A DNA stretch of 64,000 nucleotides from Flavobacterium ovatum (GTDB lineage: Bacteria > Bacteroidota > Bacteroidia > Flavobacteriales > Flavobacteriaceae), in NCBI RefSeq assembly GCF_040703125.1, contig NZ_CP160035.1, positions 3,582,001-3,646,000 on the forward strand, written 5' to 3'. Shown in pieces: positions 25,170 through 35,785 of this stretch. The notes below the pieces were generated by a model that was given only the letters and a program-made list of their open reading frames with translations, was not told the origin of the DNA and made no database searches. Position numbers and translations under genes: made by a program. Position 1 is the first letter of the stretch. Every line of letters starts with the position of its first letter.

Positions 25170-25180
25170 GGATATAAAAT

Positions 25181-25280
25181 AAAAAAGCGACACCAATTAA
25201 GACGCCGCTTTGAATGTTTTCACAACGGAATAATCCTTATTGTGAATTGCTTCAAAATTGTACTGCAATAATACAACAAA
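25181..25280 (-). ncRNA. tracrRNA of the type II-C CRISPR system
   Basis: On the minus strand the sequence at 25239-25263 reads as an anti-repeat: TACAATTTTGAAGCAATTCACAAT, which matches the plus-strand repeat text apart from one missing base and the final base. The nexus stem GGATTATTCC follows, then GTTGTGAAAACATTC, then a terminator stem GCGGCGTC-TTAATT-GGTGTCGC (25187-25208) and a T-run at 25181-25186. This is the classic order anti-repeat, nexus, terminator. The 5' end is not defined; about 100 nt is likely. It pairs with crRNA made from the minus strand of the array. Confidence 0.9.
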
Positions 25281-25385: not shown

Positions 25386-28300
25386 ATGAAAAAAATATTA
25401 GGATTGGATTTGGGAACTACATCGATTGGATGGGCATATATCAATGAAGCTGAAAGTGATAATGAAACTTCTGCTATCATAAATTCTGGGGTTAGAATAG
25501 TACCATTAACTACAGATGAAGAAGCCGATTTTAAAAAAGGGAATACAATATCAATAAATGCAGACCGAACTTTAAAGCGTGGCGCTCGAAGAGGATTACA
25601 ACGTTTTAAACAAAGAAGAAATGCTTTATTGCAAGCTTTCAGAGGAATCAATTTTATAACTTCCAATTACGTTTATGCCGAAACAGGTAAACAAACTACT
25701 TTTTCATCTTATAAATTGCGAGCCAAATCTGCCACAGAGCAGATTTCAAAAGAAGAATTAGTTCAGGTTTTACTAATGCTCAACAAAAAAAGAGGTTACA
25801 AAAGTAGTCGAAAAGCAAAAACTGCTGAAGAAGGAGATGCAATTGACGGAATGAAAATTGCCAAAGAATTAAATGATAAGAATCAAACACCTGGCGAATG
25901 GGTTTATAATTTACTATTGAATGGAGGTAAATTTATTCCTGACTTTTATCGCTCGGATTTGCAAACAGAATTAGAAAAAATTATCATTTTTCAAAATCAA
26001 TTTTATCCAGAAATTGTGACTTTAAAACTACTTGAAGAAATCCAAGGTAAAACTAGAACCGCAACTTCACAGCATTTTACTAAATCTTTAAAAATTGAAT
26101 TATCCGAAAATAAAGGTACTAGAGAAGAAACCAAATTACAACATTACAAATGGAGGAATGACGGGCTATCTTGTGCATTAGATATAAAAGTTATAGCGTT
26201 TATTCTAACCGAAATCAACAATCAAATCAACCAATCTAGTGGCTATTTGGGAGCGATAAGCGACCGAAGTAAAGAATTATATTTTAACCAAGAAACAGTT
26301 GGTCAATTCCAATTTAAGCAATTGGAGCAAAATTCACATGCAAAACTAAAAAATCAAGTTTTTTACAGACAAGATTATCTAGATGAATTTGAGCAAATTT
26401 GGGAAACACAATCAAAATTTTATCCTGAATTAGATGAAAAGTTAAAAATTGAAGTTCGAGACATTACTATTTTCTATCAACGAAAATTAAAATCTCAAAA
26501 ACATTTAGTTAGTTTTTGTGAATTTGAGAAAGGGCATAAAGCGATTCCTAAATCGTCACCTCTATTTCAAGATTTTAGAATTTGGCAAAATTTAAACAAT
26601 ATTGTTGTTAAAAACGAAACCACAAAGGAGCCTTTTATTTTGGATGAAGAACTGAAAAAAAATATCGCTCAAGAATTATTGTTTAAAGAAAGTATGACCG
26701 ATGTTCAAATGTTAACTTTTTGTGAGCTAAAGAAAGGAACTTATACCGTTAATTTCAAAAAAATTGAAGGAAACAGGACAAACACTGCACTTTTCAAAGC
26801 TTTTGAAAAAATAGTAGCAATAGAAGGTTATGATTTAGATTTTACTAAAATGTCTCCTTTAGAGATAAAAGACGCCATATCTCCTTTATTTGAAACTATA
26901 GGAATCAATACCAATTTATTATATTTTGACACTTCTATTGAAGGAAATGATTTTGACAAACAACCTTATTATCAACTTTGGCATTTATTATATTCAGCCG
27001 AAGAAGATGAAGTTTTAAAACAAACTTTAATGAAAAAATTTGGTTTCAATGAAAACCACATCCCTTTTCTTTTAAATATAAATCTACAAGCCGATTATGG
27101 TAGTTTGAGTGCAAGAGCAATTAAAAAAGTACTTCCTCATTTGATGGATGGCCATATTTACGACAAAGCTTGTTTACTGACTGGGTACAATCACTCCTCT
27201 TCACTGACTACGGAACAAAATGAGAGTAGAATTTTAAAAAAACAATTGGAATTACTGAAGAAAAATAGTTTACGTAATCCTGTAGTTGAGAAAATACTCA
27301 ATCAAATGATAAACGTTATCAATGCTATTATTGAAGACCCAGCTATGGGTAAACCTGATGAGATTCGAGTGGAACTGGCTAGAGAACTCAAAGCCAATAA
27401 TGAGCAACGTAATGAGATGACTAAAGCAATAAACAATGCTACAAAAACTCATGACGATATTCGTAAATTATTAGCTGTAGAATATGGGATTGCTAGAGTT
27501 ACCCGAAATGACATTATTAGATATAAACTTTGGAAAGAAACTGGTGGAATATCTTTATATACAGGTAAACCAATCGAGCCTTCAAGATTGTTTACCAAAG
27601 ATTATGATATTGAACACATTATACCAAAATCTAGATTATTTGACGATAGTTTCTCCAATAAAACTTTATGTGAAAGAACTTTAAATATCGAAAAGAGCAA
27701 TAAAACTGCTTATTCTTTTCTACAAGAAAAATTTACAGAAGAAGAATTTGACCAATTTGAAAAGAGAATTAAAAGTATGTTCGGTAAAATTAGTAGAACG
27801 AAGCAAAATAAATTATTGATGGCTGACCATCAAATTCCCGAAGGATTCATTGATCGCCAACTAAGAGAAACGCAATATATAGCCAAGAAAGCAAAAGAAA
27901 TTTTACTAGAAGTCTCACGAAATGTAACCGCAACTATCGGAAGTGTAACCGATAAATTACGTGAAGATTGGGAATTGATTGATGTCATGCAAGAACTCAA
28001 TTGGAATAAATATGATACCTTAGGTTTGACCTATGAGGAGAAAGGAAAAAATGGGGAACGCTTGTACAAAATTAAAGATTGGACCAAACGTAACGACCAT
28101 CGCCATCACGCTATGGATGCCATCACCGTAGCTTTTACCAAACCAGCTTACATTCAATATTTGAATAATCTGAATGCCAGAACAAATACAGATAAAAAAG
28201 GGAATTCTATTATTGGAATTGAAAACAAATACTTAAAAAGAGACAAGAACAACAAGCTTCGTTTTATAGAACCTATGCCTAACTTTAGAAGCGAAGCAAA

Positions 28301-29429
28301 AAAACAACTTGAAAGTATTTTGATTTCGTACAAAGCCAAGAATAAAGTAGTTACCAATAATAAAAACATCACCAAGAAAAGTGGCGGTACTAATCAAAAA
28401 ATTCAACTTACCCCACGTGGACAATTGCATAAAGAAACTGTTTATGGTAAAATGCAGCAATATGCCACAAAAGAAGAAAAGGTAAATGCTAATTTCACTC
28501 AAGATTACATAGCCAAAGTAGCAAAAAAAGAATATCGTGAAGCCTTATGGAAACGTTTGTCAGAAAATGATAACGACCCAAAAAAGGCATTCACTGGAAA
28601 AAACACATTAGCTAAAACACCCATTTACATCAGTTTAGAAGATAATATTGTAGTTCCCGAAAAAGTAAAAATGGTTTGGCTAGAAGACAATTATACTATT
28701 CGTAAAGATATTACTCCAGATTTAAAACTAGAGAAAGTAATTGACGTTGGTTTAAGAGAAATTCTTCAAAATCGTTTAAATGAGTTTAAGGGAGATGCAA
28801 AAAAAGCTTTTGTAAACCTTGACGAAAATCCTATTTGGCAAAATAAAGTCAAAGGGATTGCTATGAAAAGAGTAACCATTAGCGGCGTAAGTAATGCGCA
28901 AGCTTTGCACACCAAAAAAGATAATTTTGGAAATGAAATTTTAGATAAAGACGAAAACCCTATTCCTGTTGATTTTGTAAGTACTGGAAATAATCATCAT
29001 GTTGCCATTTATAGAGATGAAAAAGGAAATTTACAAGAAGAGGTTGTTTCTTTTTATGATGCGGTGGTTCGTAAAAACCTTGGTTTGTCTGTAATTAATA
29101 AAACGCATAAAAATGGATGGGAATTTCTTTTTACCATGAAGCAAAATGAATATTTTATTTTTCCATCAGATTCTTTTGAACCGCAAGAAGTTGATTTATT
29201 AAATCCTGAAAATTATCATTTGATTAGTCCTAATATGTTTAGAGTGCAGAAGTTTGGTTCACTTCTCTCGGGATTTTGGTTTAGACATCATTTAGAGACT
29301 CAAATCGAAGTTCCCAAAATTTTAAAAGGTATTACTTTTAAAGTGATTCAAAGTAGTAACAATTTAAAAGATATAATTAAAATAAGAATTAATCATCTCG
29401 GGCAAATCGTCCAAATAGGAGAATATTAG
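25386..29429 (+). CDS. cas9: CRISPR-associated endonuclease Cas9, type II-C
   Basis: 1347 residues. RuvC-I is GLDLGTTSIGWA with Asp8; an arginine-rich bridge helix follows (RTLKRGARRGLQRFKQRR, about 60-78). RuvC-II is RVELAREL with Glu663, HNH is DIEHIIPKSRLFDD with His744, and RuvC-III is HHAMDA with His908 and Asp911. All nuclease residues are present, so it should cut both strands of guide-matched DNA. The C-terminal region includes NNHHVAIYRDE of the wedge/PAM-interacting part. There is no csn2 or cas4, and the gene order cas9-cas1-cas2 marks type II-C. A tandem hairpin array starts within 20 bp of its stop codon. Confidence 0.97.
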   Translation: MKKILGLDLGTTSIGWAYINEAESDNETSAIINSGVRIVPLTTDEEADFKKGNTISINADRTLKRGARRGLQRFKQRRNALLQAFRGINFITSNYVYAETGKQTTFSSYKLRAKSATEQISKEELVQVLLMLNKKRGYKSSRKAKTAEEGDAIDGMKIAKELNDKNQTPGEWVYNLLLNGGKFIPDFYRSDLQTELEKIIIFQNQFYPEIVTLKLLEEIQGKTRTATSQHFTKSLKIELSENKGTREETKLQHYKWRNDGLSCALDIKVIAFILTEINNQINQSSGYLGAISDRSKELYFNQETVGQFQFKQLEQNSHAKLKNQVFYRQDYLDEFEQIWETQSKFYPELDEKLKIEVRDITIFYQRKLKSQKHLVSFCEFEKGHKAIPKSSPLFQDFRIWQNLNNIVVKNETTKEPFILDEELKKNIAQELLFKESMTDVQMLTFCELKKGTYTVNFKKIEGNRTNTALFKAFEKIVAIEGYDLDFTKMSPLEIKDAISPLFETIGINTNLLYFDTSIEGNDFDKQPYYQLWHLLYSAEEDEVLKQTLMKKFGFNENHIPFLLNINLQADYGSLSARAIKKVLPHLMDGHIYDKACLLTGYNHSSSLTTEQNESRILKKQLELLKKNSLRNPVVEKILNQMINVINAIIEDPAMGKPDEIRVELARELKANNEQRNEMTKAINNATKTHDDIRKLLAVEYGIARVTRNDIIRYKLWKETGGISLYTGKPIEPSRLFTKDYDIEHIIPKSRLFDDSFSNKTLCERTLNIEKSNKTAYSFLQEKFTEEEFDQFEKRIKSMFGKISRTKQNKLLMADHQIPEGFIDRQLRETQYIAKKAKEILLEVSRNVTATIGSVTDKLREDWELIDVMQELNWNKYDTLGLTYEEKGKNGERLYKIKDWTKRNDHRHHAMDAITVAFTKPAYIQYLNNLNARTNTDKKGNSIIGIENKYLKRDKNNKLRFIEPMPNFRSEAKKQLESILISYKAKNKVVTNNKNITKKSGGTNQKIQLTPRGQLHKETVYGKMQQYATKEEKVNANFTQDYIAKVAKKEYREALWKRLSENDNDPKKAFTGKNTLAKTPIYISLEDNIVVPEKVKMVWLEDNYTIRKDITPDLKLEKVIDVGLREILQNRLNEFKGDAKKAFVNLDENPIWQNKVKGIAMKRVTISGVSNAQALHTKKDNFGNEILDKDENPIPVDFVSTGNNHHVAIYRDEKGNLQEEVVSFYDAVVRKNLGLSVINKTHKNGWEFLFTMKQNEYFIFPSDSFEPQEVDLLNPENYHLISPNMFRVQKFGSLLSGFWFRHHLETQIEVPKILKGITFKVIQSSNNLKDIIKIRINHLGQIVQIGEY

Positions 29430-29440
29430 TTCAAACACGA

Positions 29441-30775
29441 TTAATTGAATAGGATTGGGTTTTAACCCATTCAACACAATACAAACACACAGAACAGGCT
29501 TTAGCCGAAACATTTGGCTAAAGCCCTTTCTAAAATCAAACCTTTAATCCCTCCATTTAAAAATGGAGGCAATTCAATAATAGAGATCATTCAAAAATCA
29601 GGATGATTTGACAAATAGAAATTAAAATCAAAATTCCATTTTTTGCAGTGCAACAGATTCAATAGGATTGGGTTTTAACCCATTCGATACAATAAAAACA
29701 CACAGAATAGGCTTTAGCCAAAACATTTGGCTAAAGCCTATTCTAGAATCAAATTTTAATCCCTCCATTTAAAAATGGAGGCAATTCAAGAAATAGAGAT
29801 CATTCAAAAAATAGGATGATTTGACAAATAGGAATCAATATCAACAATCATTTTTTTGCAATACAACAGATTCAATAGGATTGGGATTTATCCCATTCAA
29901 CACAATACAAACATACAAAAAAAGGCTTTAGCCGAAACATTTGGCTAAAGCCCATTATAAAATCAAACCTATAATCCCTCCTTTTAAAAATGGAGGCAAT
30001 TCAATAAATAGAGATCATTCAAAAATTAGGATGATTTAACAAATAGGAAATAATCTAAAGATTGTTATTTATTCATAACAACAAATTCAATAGGATTGGG
30101 TTTTAACCCATTCGACACATTATAAACACACAGAAAAGGCTTTAGCCGAAATATTTGGCTAAAACCCATTCTAAAATCAAATTTTTATCCCTTCATTTAA
30201 AAATGGAGGCAATTCAAAAAATAGACACAATGCAAAAATTGGGATTATTTGCCAAATAAAAATCAAGATTCCAATTTGTGCATTACAAAGGATTCAATAG
30301 GATTGGGATTTATCCCATTCAACACAATAAAAACACATAGAATAGGCTTTAGCCGAAACATTTAGCTAAAGCCCTTTCTAAAATCAAATTTTAATCCCTC
30401 CATTTAAAAATGGAGGCAATGCAAAAAATAGACACAATGCAAAAATTGGGATTATTTGCCAAATAAAAATCAATATCAAGATTTCAATTTGTGCATTACA
30501 AAGGATTCAATAGGATTGGGATTTATCCCATTCAACACAATACAGACACACAGAAAAGGCTTTATCCGAAACATTTGGCTAAAGCCCATTCTAGAATCAA
30601 ATTTTTATCCCTCCATATAAAAATAGAGGCAATTCAAAAAATAGATACAATAAAAAAACTTGGATTGTTTGACAAATAGACATCAAGATTCCAATTTATG
30701 CATTACAACAAATTCAATAGGATTGGGATTTATCCCATTCAAACATAAAATATAAATCATTTAAAAACACAATTT
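29441..30775. repeat. Tandem array of six to seven 207-215 bp hairpin units
   Basis: The box AGGATTGGG recurs at 29451, 29664, 29877, 30092, 30299, 30512 and 30719. Each full unit holds three stems: TGGG(T/A)TTTA(A/T)CCCA, GGCTTTAGCC...GGCTAAAGCC, and CCTCCATTTaAAATGGAGG, then a weaker one around ATCATTC...GGATGAT. The seventh unit is cut after its first stem by the transposase gene. The stems resemble REP/IS200-type palindromes used by HUH transposases. The units contain no real gene. Confidence 0.9.
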
Positions 30776-31207
30776 ATGCCTTATATAAAAACCTATATCC
30801 ATTTTGTTTGGAGTACAAAGAATAGAATACCATTTTTGAATAATAAAGAATTAAGACAAAAAGTTTGGCGTCATATCAAAGAAAATGCAGAGAAGAAAGG
30901 AATTTTTGTTGATTTTGTCAATGGTTATTCTGATCACTGCCATTGCTTGATTTCATTGGGAGCAGATCAAACTATCCAAAAAACCATGCAACTGATAAAA
31001 GGAGAATCATCTTTTTGGATTAACCAAAACAAATTCTGCTTGAACAAATTTGAATGGCAGGATGAATATTTTGCGGTTTCTATATCCGAGTCAATGCTTG
31101 ACAAAGTTAGGAACTACATCCGAAATCAAGAAGAACATCATAGTAAACATTCCTTTGAAGAGGAGTACAATGAATTTATTACCAAATATAAATTTCAAAA
31201 AGAATAA
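30776..31207 (+). CDS. REP-associated (RAYT/Y1, IS200-like) HUH transposase
   Basis: 143 residues, complete for the small TnpA fold. The HUH metal site is His54-Cys-His56 in YSDHCHCLIS and the single catalytic tyrosine is Tyr114 in VRNYIRNQEEHH. The N-terminus YIKTYIHFVWSTKNRIPFL is typical of this family. Such enzymes nick and join single-stranded DNA at hairpins. The gene lies inside a split hairpin unit between cas9 and cas1, with like units on both sides, which fits a RAYT/REP pair. No tnpB/iscB gene is attached. It does not look like a Cas protein. Confidence 0.92.
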   Translation: MPYIKTYIHFVWSTKNRIPFLNNKELRQKVWRHIKENAEKKGIFVDFVNGYSDHCHCLISLGADQTIQKTMQLIKGESSFWINQNKFCLNKFEWQDEYFAVSISESMLDKVRNYIRNQEEHHSKHSFEEEYNEFITKYKFQKE

Positions 31208-31392
31208 ATTTGGCTAAAGCCATTGTAACTCTTTCCTATTTCCCCTCCAGCTAAAGCGGGAGGCAATTCAAAAGCAAGAAGGTTCAATATGCCGGTATGC
31301 AATCAATAGGATTGAGTTTTGATCCAATCGACACAAAAAACACTCAATAGGCTTTAGCTAAAATAATTTAAATGCATTTTAAATCTTAAAAA
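31208..31392. repeat. Hairpin-unit remainder downstream of the transposase
   Basis: TTGGCTAAAGCC and a stem CCTCC-AGCTAAAGC-GGGAGG (second half of a unit) follow the transposase stop. A further first-half unit, AATAGGATTGAGTTTTGATC..., with a decayed GGCTTTAGCTAAAAT stem then runs up to about 40 bp before cas1. The pieces show that the transposase gene occupies the middle of a unit. Confidence 0.8.
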
Positions 31393-32286
31393 ATGATAAA
31401 ACGCACCCTATTCTTCGGTAATCCCGCTTATTTAAGCACCAAAAACGAACAATTAGTCATTTCTTATCCTGACAAGAATTTAGAAACCAAATCAGTAGCT
31501 ATTGAAGAAATTGGCGTCATTGTACTTGAAAGCCAACAAATTACCATTACAAATGGTTTATTAGAAAAACTAACCAACAATAATGTAGCATTAATTAATT
31601 GCGACCAATATCATTTACCAATTGGCCTGTTAATGCCTTTGAGTGGTCATACTGAACAAACAGAAAGATTTAGGAACCAAATTAATGCTTCTGTACCGCT
31701 AAAAAAGAATTTATGGCAACAAACCATTAGTGCCAAGATTACGAACCAAGCAGGCTTACTTAGAGAAAAAGGTATTCCCTGTCGTAAAATGGAAATTTGG
31801 GCCAAAGAAGTAAGTTCTGGAGATGCTCTCAATCACGAATCAAGAGCAGCTGTTTTCTACTGGGCTAATCTGTTTACAATTGAAAATTTCACCAGAGGTC
31901 AAAAAGAAATGGCACCCAACAACTTGCTTAACTATGGATATGCTATTCTACGAGGAATTACAGCTCGGGCATTAGTAAGCTCGGGAATGCTACCCACTCT
32001 AGGCATCTTTCATCGCAACAAGTACAATGCTTATTGCTTAGCCGATGATATAATGGAGCCCTATCGCCCGTATGTAGATTTGATTGTGAGTCATATTATC
32101 GAAAATGAAGATACTATAGAAAAACTTACTATCGATATGAAAAAACAATTATTGAGTATTGCTTCTATCGATGTTTGTATTGATGGTAAAAACAGTCCGT
32201 TGATGGTTGCGATGAGTCGAACAACAAATTCATTAAACGAATGTTTTGAAGGCTCCTCTCGAAAACTTTTATACCCTGTTTTTTAA
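31393..32286 (+). CDS. cas1: CRISPR-associated integrase Cas1, type II
   Basis: 297 residues, normal for type II Cas1. The metal-binding triad is Glu149 (ALNHESRAAVFYW), His207 (LGIFHRNKYN) and Glu222 (LADDIMEPYRP). Cas1 with Cas2 inserts new spacers into the array. It is separated from cas9 by 1.96 kb of transposase and hairpin units, so it may need its own promoter, and cas2 follows 30 bp later. Confidence 0.97.
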   Translation: MIKRTLFFGNPAYLSTKNEQLVISYPDKNLETKSVAIEEIGVIVLESQQITITNGLLEKLTNNNVALINCDQYHLPIGLLMPLSGHTEQTERFRNQINASVPLKKNLWQQTISAKITNQAGLLREKGIPCRKMEIWAKEVSSGDALNHESRAAVFYWANLFTIENFTRGQKEMAPNNLLNYGYAILRGITARALVSSGMLPTLGIFHRNKYNAYCLADDIMEPYRPYVDLIVSHIIENEDTIEKLTIDMKKQLLSIASIDVCIDGKNSPLMVAMSRTTNSLNECFEGSSRKLLYPVF

Positions 32287-32316: not shown

Positions 32317-32664
32317 ATGTATGATGAACATTACACACGTTTAAACCAATATAGAAGTTTGTGGATATTAGTATTTTTTGACCTGCCGACAGAAACCCGT
32401 AAGGAACGTAAGATAGCTTCTGGATTTAGAAAGAAACTATTGGACGATGGATTTTCTATGTTCCAATTTTCGATTTACATGCGCTTTTGTGCGAGTAGAG
32501 AAAACGCTGAAGTACATACGAAAAGAATAAAAAGCAACCTCCCCGAACATGGAAAAATTGGAGTGATGCAAATTACCGATAAACAGTTTGGAATGATGGA
32601 ATTATTTTACGGGAAAAAGCCTATAGCCCCTGAGAAACCATCTCAACAATTAGAACTTTTCTAA
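32317..32664 (+). CDS. cas2: CRISPR-associated protein Cas2
   Basis: 115 residues. The ferredoxin-like fold begins [18 protein letters not shown] with Asp22 at the usual position, and continues [14 protein letters not shown] and [17 protein letters not shown]. Cas2 is the scaffold that bridges two Cas1 dimers during spacer integration. The array starts 114 bp downstream. Confidence 0.95.
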
Positions 32665-32778: not shown

Positions 32779-35481
32779 GTTGGGAATTATAAGCTAAAAT
32801 ACAATTTTGAAAGCAATTCACAACTTTATCCATTTATAGTGAAAGTCGTAAGAGGTTGGGAATTATAAGCTAAAATACAATTTTGAAAGCAATTCACAAC
32901 TTATATCATGTGTTAGGGAATCGGCTTTTTGTTGGGAATTATAAGCTAAAATACAATTTTGAAAGCAATTCACAACTCAAAACCAAAATTCAATAACCAA
33001 TCCTCAGTTGGGAATTATAAGCTAAAATACAATTTTGAAAGCAATTCACAACTGATACTTTATTTTTGTTTTGTTTATTTCAGTTGGGAATTATAAGCTA
33101 AAATACAATTTTGAAAGCAATTCACAACTAACGTGTCGGTTAAATCCTTTTTACATTCGTTGGGAATTATAAGCTAAAATACAATTTTGAAAGCAATTCA
33201 CAACAAGCAATAGAACAACCTAAAAAGACATCAAGTTGGGAATTATAAGCTAAAATACAATTTTGAAAGCAATTCACAACAAGAGAATTGTCGATATTGC
33301 GACCTTCGAGGTTGGGAATTATAAGCTAAAATACAATTTTGAAAGCAATTCACAACAAAAAGGGCATCATCCCGCAACTTTTCAGGGTTGGGGATTATAA
33401 GCTAAAATACAATTTTGAAAGCAATTCACAACTTCACCAAAGCAATGAATTTAGAATCATCCGTTGGGAATTATAAGCTAAAATACAATTTTGAAAGCAA
33501 TTCACAACCATCGATGACGTTCTTTTTGATGAACAAGGGTTGGGAATTATAAGCTAAAATACAATTTTGAAAGCAATTCACAACTCAATCTCATGGTTAA
33601 TTAAAGCAGTCTTTGTTGGGAATTATAAGCTAAAATACAATTTTGAAAGCAATTCACAACTCTTGATTGTGAATAGTCCATAAATACATAGTTGGGAATT
33701 ATAAGCTAAAATACAATTTTGAAAGCAATTCACAACGATACTATCAAAAGTAAACCACAAATCTTCGTTGGGAATTATAAGCTAAAATACAATTTTGAAA
33801 GCAATTCACAACTAAATTAATCGACCATCCCACAATTGAATAGTTGGGAATTATAAGCTAAAATACAATTTTGAAAGCAATTCACAACGAATAGCGTTTT
33901 TTAAAAAAGTTTGCATTGGTTGGGAATTATAAGCTAAAATACAATTTTGAAAGCAATTCACAACTAGAGTTTTTAATCAATGCAAATATTACGTGTTGGG
34001 AATTATAAGCTAAAATACAATTTTGAAAGCAATTCACAACTTCCAAATCATAATGTTTGTCGTTATAAAGGTTGGGAATTATAAGCTAAAATACAATTTT
34101 GAAAGCAATTCACAACGCTCAAATACCACAAGGCGGTTTCCCGACGTTGGGAATTATAAGCTAAAATACAATTTTGAAAGCAATTCACAACAAGGGATTT
34201 TTTTTGGCTCAAATGTTAAAGTTGGGAATTATAAGCTAAAATACAATTTTGAAAGCAATTCACAACTATTGAATACTGTTTTTGTGCAATCCAACCGTTG
34301 GGAATTATAAGCTAAAATACAATTTTGAAAGCAATTCACAACTTTTGCATCCAAAGTAAGCTCTGAGTTATTGTTGGGAATTATAAGCTAAAATACAATT
34401 TTGAAAGCAATTCACAACACCGCCACTAAATGGAATATCCCTACCCATGTTGGGAATTATAAGCTAAAATACAATTTTGAAAGCAATTCACAACTGCCCA
34501 AGTTCTAGTTTTTGATTTATTAGAGTTGGGAATTATAAGCTAAAATACAATTTTGAAAGCAATTCACAACTCTTGCCCTGTTCTTTTACAGTATCCGTTT
34601 GTTGGGAATTATAAGCTAAAATACAATTTTGAAAGCAATTCACAACATATTGATTTAACGACCTGAGCCATTACATGTTGGGAATTATAAGCTAAAATAC
34701 AATTTTGAAAGCAATTCACAACACCAATGGTGAATTCAATAAATATCTTACTGTTGGGAATTATAAGCTAAAATACAATTTTGAAAGCAATTCACAACTC
34801 CCTGACGAAAATCAAACTATTATCTACAGTTGGGAATTATAAGCTAAAATACAATTTTGAAAGCAATTCACAACATTGCATAATCTTTATTTTCGAAATA
34901 ATGAGTTGGGAATTATAAGCTAAAATACAATTTTGAAAGCAATTCACAACTTTCCGGAACGAAGGATTTCAACGTCTTGAGTTGGGAATTATAAGCTAAA
35001 ATACAATTTTGAAAGCAATTCACAACTCAAAGAGCGGTCTTTATGACTTTTACGAAGTTGGGAATTATAAGCTAAAATACAATTTTGAAAGCAATTCACA
35101 ACATGATATCATTCATAATTTTATTTATTTTGTTGGGAATTATAAGCTAAAATACAATTTTGAAAGCAATTCACAACTTATTAGATAATGTATTACGTTG
35201 TTTGGAAGTTGGGAATTATAAGCTAAAATACAATTTTGAAAGCAATTCACAACATAGTGGCCATGTTCGTGATTTGCTTGATCGTTGGGAATTATAAGCT
35301 AAAATACAATTTTGAAAGCAATTCACAACGTACTAAGTGAATAAACACCGTCAAAAACAGTTGGGAATTATAAGCTAAAATACCATTTTGAAAGCAATTC
35401 ACAACGTTTTTTGGGTTTCAGCAAAAACAACTACTGTTGGGAATTATAAGCTAAAATACAATTTTGAAAGCAATTCACAAC
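32779..35481 (-). CRISPR. CRISPR array, 36 repeats and 35 spacers (type II-C)
   Basis: Counting by hand gives 36 repeats of 46 bp and 35 spacers, all 30 bp except three of 29 (ending at 34145, 34220 and 35131). On the plus strand the repeat starts GTTGGGAATTATAAGC and ends GAAAGCAATTCACAAC. Only repeat 9 (33387, A to G at position 7) and repeat 35 (35360, one A to C in the central ACAATT) differ. The minus strand is given because the tracrRNA anti-repeat pairs with the minus-strand repeat, which begins GTTGTGAATTGC, the usual type II crRNA repeat start. The minus repeat also carries TATAAT near its end, a possible internal promoter element. Confidence 0.97.
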
Positions 35482-35534
35482 TAAAAAAGATAGTGTCCTG
35501 CTTAGTGGACACTATCTTTTTTAGTTGTGAATTG
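35471..35534. terminator. 28-bp perfect inverted repeat at the array end
   Basis: The left arm (35471-35498) is the last 11 bases of the final repeat plus CTAAAAAAGATAGTGTCC-type sequence. An 8-nt loop (TGCTTAGT) follows, and the right arm (35507-35534) is its exact complement. The inner part GATAGTGTCC...GGACACTATCTTTTTT is a textbook terminator on either strand. It would stop plus-strand transcripts leaving the array and minus-strand transcripts entering it. Confidence 0.88.
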
Positions 35535-35579: not shown

Positions 35580-35785
35580 TAGTCCTACTTCGGTGTGACT
35601 TTTCATTTTACAACTATTCTTCTTTCCACACCAATCCCCTAGCCCTGATTGCAACGGAATTCCTTATGCCATAGCCTTGAATTTTTTTCTTGACTATAAA
35701 GAGCGACTGAAAGAAGCTCCTTTAGGGTCTTAGAAAAAACAAGGCTATAAATAAGAATGGAGTGTAAAACGGGAAATAGCTTCTT
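35580..35785. repeat. Recurrent flavobacterial intergenic element (putative)
   Basis: Read on the minus strand this begins GAAGCTATTTCCCGTTTTAC, includes AGGAGCTTCTTTCAGTCGCTC and ends AAGGAATTCCGTTGCAATCAG followed by GGCTAG. From memory, elements with ends like AGCTATTTCC(C/T)G and GGATTTCCGTTTCAATCGGGGCTA are frequent between flavobacterial genes. The match is from recall, not a search. No protein is encoded here. Confidence 0.4.

Follow-up and report, generated by a model that had tools for sequence, protein, structure and literature searches.

The interval between cas9 and cas1 in the type II-C CRISPR-Cas locus of Flavobacterium ovatum (assembly GCF_040703125.1, contig NZ_CP160035.1) is filled by a block that we regard, with a probability of about 0.7, as a resident REPtron, a TnpA-type HUH transposase with its own hairpins, which apparently arrived at the cas9|cas1 junction on a single occasion and was subsequently transmitted along with cas1-cas2 instead of moving. 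The window, i.e. the whole 64,000-nt stretch of DNA analysed (positions 3,582,001 to 3,646,000 of the contig), contains cas9-cas1-cas2, a tracrRNA gene and a CRISPR array, with neither csn2 nor cas4 beside these genes, as in type II-C. The interval between cas2 and the array contained no further open reading frame (ORF) of 80 aa or more, and a Flavo-1 RNA (RF01705, 46.4 bits; gathering score 42) was located past the array, at 35637-35780. From the last position of cas9 (29429) to the first of cas1 (31393), the gap measures 1963 nt, and it holds six tandem three-hairpin units of about 213 nt, the gene tnpA for a 143-aa HUH Y1 transposase, and half-units. A preliminary description, made from the sequence alone, had placed a Y1/HUH transposase and hairpin units in this gap, and this was confirmed by Pfam (Y1_Tnp) and by the repeat array. 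The features, in window coordinates, are as follows.

25180-25262, minus strand: tracrRNA gene (transcription predicted), comprising anti-repeat (25240-25262; 23/24 identical to the reverse complement of the CRISPR repeat), tail, and terminator hairpin with T run; fold z -3.5; left flank of the cas9 exchange slot
25386-29429, plus strand: cas9, type A of the comparison below, 1347 aa, the exchanged gene (TIGR01865, 563 bits; borders by blastn)
29446-30713, plus strand: six tandem units of 207-215 nt, each with hairpins A, B and C
30714-30740, plus strand: seventh hairpin A, immediately 5' of tnpA, B left arm missing
30776-31207, plus strand: tnpA, 143 aa, HUH Y1 transposase with TnpA subclass 1.2 motifs (Pfam Y1_Tnp, 98 bits; NCBIfam IS200, 62.3)
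31212-31269, plus strand: B right arm, then hairpin C, 3' of tnpA; a set conserved downstream of the gene across the family
31303-31359, plus strand: last hairpin A and B left arm, right end of the block
31360-31392, plus strand: A+T-rich cas1 leader, absent in empty loci, where cas1 abuts cas9
31393-32286, plus strand: cas1, type II (TIGR03639, 303 bits)
32317-32664, plus strand: cas2 (TIGR01573, 72 bits)
32779-35482, no strand assigned: CRISPR array, about 36 repeats of 46-47 nt (RF01363, Tandem Repeats Finder)

Tandem Repeats Finder delimited the tandem array at 29444-30742 (period 213, 6.1 copies, 85% matches, score 1722). The unit is composed of hairpin A (TCAATAGGATTGGG..CCCATTC), hairpin B (GGCTTTAGCC..GGCTAAAGCC) and hairpin C (CCTCC..GGAGGCAATTC), and one unit folded at -52.9 kcal/mol with a z score of -8.0, none of 200 shuffled sequences folding equally well. 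The first hairpin starts 16 nt after the cas9 stop, and 33 nt separate the last hairpin arm from cas1; the preliminary description gave about 20 and 40 bp. The placement of tnpA in the middle of a split unit, also proposed there, held in part: tnpA is preceded by hairpin A and followed by the right arm of B, whereas the window lacks the corresponding left arm. Among 12 cas-locus relatives, tnpA lies between both sides of B in seven, and a whole A-B-C unit stands 5' of the gene in five. The block ends on the right with hairpin A and the left arm of B in the window and with hairpin C in G112 and L106 (G numbers denote sampled genomes, L numbers individual loci), so the candidate rule that it always closes with hairpin A and an arm of B was dropped. 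Rfam detected no RNA family reaching its gathering score within the block.

The tnpA product contains D53-H54-C55-H56, with C replacing I or V, W94-Q95, and Y114 followed by IRNQ and EEHH. As D53-H54-C55-H56 and Y114 were invariant in 10 sequences, the residues named earlier (H54-C-H56 and Y114) were right. TnpA subclass 1.2 is characterized, in the available part of PMC6006769, by DH-x-H, WQ and Y---Q--HH motifs, a length of about 148 aa, low copy number, and hosts among Bacteroidetes or Cyanobacteria. Judged by its motifs, the protein fits this subclass and not the class 2 RAYTs, and the RAYT label of the preliminary description was not borne out, the NCBIfam RAYT model scoring 32.2 bits, below its cut-off of 80. 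The NCBIfam IS200 model NF033573 scored 62.3 bits, above its cut-off of 55, and ISHp608 TnpA (PDB 2a6m) was the solved relative by sequence profile (E 2.9e-7). In the scan of named genomes, in which the best 80 of 282 matches were kept to give 79 loci, 65 had the right arm of B within 120 nt 3' of the gene, compared with 3 of 526 control windows (Fisher p 3e-69). By site, the arm accompanied tnpA at 10/12 cas loci, 17/18 loci between cobT and cobS, 7/9 loci in restriction-modification (R-M) operons and 31/40 other loci (best 80 of 282 matches), and hairpins C and A were readable after it in many of the 65 loci.

The distribution of the block was investigated in 398 Flavobacterium genomes, 117 of which gave a Cas1 match, 35 with at least 74% identity. 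Among these 35 genomes, 10 possessed the full block (G000, G378, G233, G223, G234, G056, G288, G112, G300 and G294; the contig of G378 runs out before the expected cas9), three carried remnants (units without tnpA in G325, the last 57 residues in G324, and a frameshifted copy in G270), 20 were empty, and the upstream region of G170 and G258 was not covered. The comparison of cas9-cas1 gaps in related genomes, which the preliminary description had suggested, thus indicated that most lack the block and have cas9 and cas1 abutting, the spacing in the 20 empty loci ranging from -4 to about 70 nt. Among the best 80 of 282 matches, twelve loci, including those of F. sp. 7A, F. rhamnosiphilum, F. tiangeerense, F. 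xanthum, F. micromati, F. laiguense, F. frigidarium and F. cellulosilyticum, carried a tnpA of 79-91% identity, all at cas loci; several of the genomes occur both here and in the G-numbered sample. In the flanking DNA examined of the remaining 67 of 79 loci (best 80 of 282 matches), none of cas1, cas2 or cas9 was seen. All 14 intact copies of the clade (window, L106-L117 and G112) are directly upstream of cas1, and cas9 is visible before the block in 13, the contig of L114 ending too early. In L077 (G112) and L071 (G378), an ORF of 286 aa with a HIRAN domain (Pfam, 47 bits), 86% alike between the two, stands before tnpA between block units; G112 was its sole match among 299 sampled genomes, and it gave partial PADLOC matches to PDC-M03B.

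Beyond the cas loci, the 79 loci (best 80 of 282 matches) comprised 18 with tnpA between cobT and cobS, nine within operons of type I R-M systems and 40 elsewhere. The reference flanks were confirmed by Pfam (DBI_PRT, CobS, N6_Mtase, Methylase_S and EcoEI_R_C), and other loci were labelled by blastp to these. The upstream gene was co-directional in 67 of 77 family loci, and its stop lay within 70 nt of tnpA in 24 of 79 (both from the best 80 of 282 matches). At L134, L136, L146, L157 and L166, five of the nine R-M loci among these matches, no more than 1 nt separates the tnpA start from the stop of a type I R-M gene, an arrangement resembling translational coupling. In a tree of 90 rows, the cas rows formed one side of one branch with moderate support (SH-aLRT 86, no bootstrap), the cob rows formed one other branch (78), and the R-M rows were scattered. 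Six block genomes with cobT-cobS have this gene pair without tnpA; cobS had no match in the window's genome. As the cas and cob rows each occupy one branch and the cobT-cobS pairs of block genomes lack tnpA, tnpA seems to enter a site rarely and then to stay for a long time.

The preliminary description regarded the presence of the same block at many genome positions, with no preference for the cas locus, as evidence against its reading. The A-B-C array was found at a single place in the 4.25-Mb complete genome, the cas locus, the remaining matches being short pieces, and the genome contains one tnpA; the 14-member clade is likewise found at cas loci only, and the wider family occurs elsewhere too. 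Exact B hairpins were present at four other places in the window's genome, and C-type hairpins were dispersed in all 20 genomes searched. In G139, a run of C-type hairpins with a spacing of about 84 nt (C1:2088771-2090015) lies about 6 kb before another tnpA (L051). Searches of phages and plasmids gave no close tnpA match, the weak ones being one of 29% and four of 32-36%. Mutual exclusion between a second tnpA (at least 63% identity) and the cas-locus tnpA was considered and is not claimed (0/10 vs 6/22, p 0.14).

The reading frame of tnpA was exactly 143 codons in 14 of 14 species. Pairwise dN/dS, calculated with our own Nei-Gojobori script, had a median of 0.063 (range 0.016-0.188) among the 14 copies, indicating purifying selection, compared with medians of 0.030 for cas1 and 0.038 for cas2; as synonymous sites are near saturation, these values are rough. 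Synonymous distances of tnpA and cas1 were correlated (Mantel r 0.74, p 0.0005), which may partly reflect the species tree, and the window and L106 were discordant, with a synonymous difference of 0.50 in tnpA and 0.28 in cas1. On the cas1 tree, block presence requires at least three changes; therefore, loss, or some transfer, has occurred. The preliminary description had left open whether the block is a passenger or was kept for uncoupling the two cas modules. For the gene itself, the intact frames, the low dN/dS and the single branch favour retention, while uncoupling as the reason for it gained no support.

Taken together, these observations suggest the following course for the resident REPtron. 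TnpA and its hairpins would have entered a Flavobacterium type II-C cas9|cas1 junction, apparently once, and the block would have been passed on with cas1-cas2 since then instead of moving. TnpA may still nick or join single-stranded hairpin DNA. It would probably act in trans on the small number of hairpins dispersed in the genome and be under selection for this or another housekeeping activity. If so, the cas operon would be only an address, supplying read-through transcription from cas9. The hairpins of the block now bound the adaptation half on its left and the cas9 exchange slot on its right.

Alternatively, the block could have been kept since its hairpins part cas1-cas2 expression from that of cas9 and give the adaptation genes a dose of their own; uncoupling was one of the two options raised in the preliminary description. 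This is consistent with the strong folding of each unit and with the A+T-rich leader that cas1 has gained at block loci, cas1 abutting cas9 at empty loci (-4 to about 70 nt); the Bacteroidetes motif TAnnTTTG was also recognized by eye before cas1 in L107, L108 and L113. As these are only three of 14 leaders, the motif was rejected as a common cas1 promoter. The block contained no terminator-like site on the forward strand and one on the minus strand (shuffled sequences give 1.0), and promoter-like sites were not above shuffles in a scan that does not cover Bacteroidetes promoters. Arrays comprised 15-75 repeats at 10 readable block loci and 11-73 at 13 readable empty loci, showing no difference (p 0.62 in a test that took three masked arrays as 1 repeat; the ranges omit those three). 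The same tnpA family, moreover, resides in cobT-cobS and type I R-M operons. The hairpins may possibly slow transcription, or cas1 may start in its own new leader, but uncoupling as the reason for keeping the block appears unlikely.

A further consideration is the replacement of cas9 to the left of the block. Four cas9 types, of which A and B share about 26% residue identity, accompany close cas1 genes, and cas9 type requires at least 14 changes on a cas1 tree of 37 loci, near the level of shuffled labels. In four pairs whose exchanged cas9 types are about 26% identical (L109/L111, window/L106, L107/L113 and the weakly supported L115/L117), blastn revealed DNA homology through the tracrRNA gene and 32-59 nt into cas9, absent thereafter except for short patches. 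Relative to the cas9 stop it returns at positions -8 to +15, either at the first hairpin or immediately before it. The first 50 nt or so of the window cas9 are common to type B neighbours. The tracrRNA core is nearly identical upstream of cas9 types A, B and D, which are mutually 25-39% alike, and was found in 18 of 23 rows with a cas9 start, the exceptions being G112, G149, G066 and the type C loci G224 and G324 (in G149 and G112 the tracrRNA region is near the edge of the stretch examined); the CRISPR repeat is also common across these loci. In the available part of PMC3936727, dual-RNAs are described as exchangeable only between close Cas9s, and loci in which Cas9s about 26% identical share tracrRNA and repeat therefore constitute a natural test of that rule. 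In L116 (G234) and L108 (G300), cas9 is separated from the first unit by about 80 nt derived from a cas1 5' end; these pieces end at nearly one place despite different cas9 types and may be a scar of exchange.

These borders invite the reading that TnpA and the hairpins actively favour breakage or strand exchange at the cas9|cas1 border, promoting cas9 replacement while the array is kept. The return of homology at the first hairpin in the four pairs and the type changes per cas1-tree length (5/1.75 with the block, 7/4.35 without) point in this direction, but the difference in rate was not significant (p 0.24; 0.17 with remnants), and as the cas9 types are dissimilar right up to their termini, the border has to fall at the end of cas9 in any case. 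Block-free loci also exchange cas9, 4 of 5 comparisons placing the border at the cas1 start, which does not identify the block as the cause; the slot for exchange belongs to the locus itself, and the block, at loci that have one, only forms its right edge. On the cas9 trees, block state was unclustered for type A (5 changes; shuffled mean about 5) and weakly clustered for type B (2 changes; empty rows this low in 7/500 shuffles), the result thus differing by cas9 type. We consider promotion of exchange by the block distinctly improbable. Of similarly low probability is the idea that the block could be a domesticated part of the adaptation half, in which TnpA and the hairpins would mark the border 3' of cas9, and might also nick it, letting effectors about 26% alike swap on the same tracrRNA and repeats while cas1-cas2 and the spacer memory stay. 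That the block is an ordinary mobile IS200-like insertion sequence, which landed in the operon by chance and is decaying, agrees with the IS200-type assignment by Pfam and NCBIfam and with the decayed remnants in G325, G324 and G270, but is very improbable given a single copy at one site in 14 species, intact in all and under purifying selection.

Compared with known systems, the resident REPtron shares the HUH Y1 fold family with IS200/IS605 elements, as indicated by the profile match to ISHp608 TnpA; the variable positions among relatives that mark IS200/IS605 mobility were not seen in this clade. Class 2 RAYT/TnpA_REP systems are described, in the available part of PMC8266576, as single-copy, housekeeping-like transposases with flanking and dispersed hairpins and a Y-x-x-NP signature. 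The block has the REPtron structure in common with them, namely a single tnpA, flanking hairpins and copies elsewhere, and differs from them in having Y-IRNQ in place of Y-x-x-NP, few dispersed hairpins and tandem 213-nt units. Published examples include the in situ shuffling of Cas9 at II-C loci of Flavobacteriales (PMC12669027) and a single replacement of this kind in F. psychrophilum (PMC10309648), and in the available text of both, as here, close cas1 genes accompany unlike cas9 genes replaced between tracrRNA and cas1; a TnpA/hairpin block at the cas9-cas1 border is not described in the available text of either paper, the latter mentioning IS982 and IS256 transposases elsewhere in one locus. 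Our search of the open-access literature found nothing on a TnpA/REP block in a cas operon, and "crispr" has no occurrence in PMC6006769, where residence in cas operons is not mentioned for subclass 1.2. The protein agrees with that subclass, as far as the text of PMC6006769 was available, in motifs, length, single copy per genome and a range of loci lying nearly all in Bacteroidota (best 80 of 282 matches), and differs in the conserved hairpin arm right after the gene. As that text describes subclass 1.2 as generally without terminal secondary structures, the hairpins widen its membership rather than exclude the protein from it, and we take A, B and C to be the putative cognate hairpin set of the subclass, of which we saw no earlier description. 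A little-studied transposase subclass thereby gains a recognizable hairpin partner and is found residing long in operons, cas among them, and the analysis locates the precise limits of the Cas9 exchange slot in Flavobacterium. What is new is the place, the cas9|cas1 junction, and a hairpin-bearing member of subclass 1.2, rather than a new kind of system.
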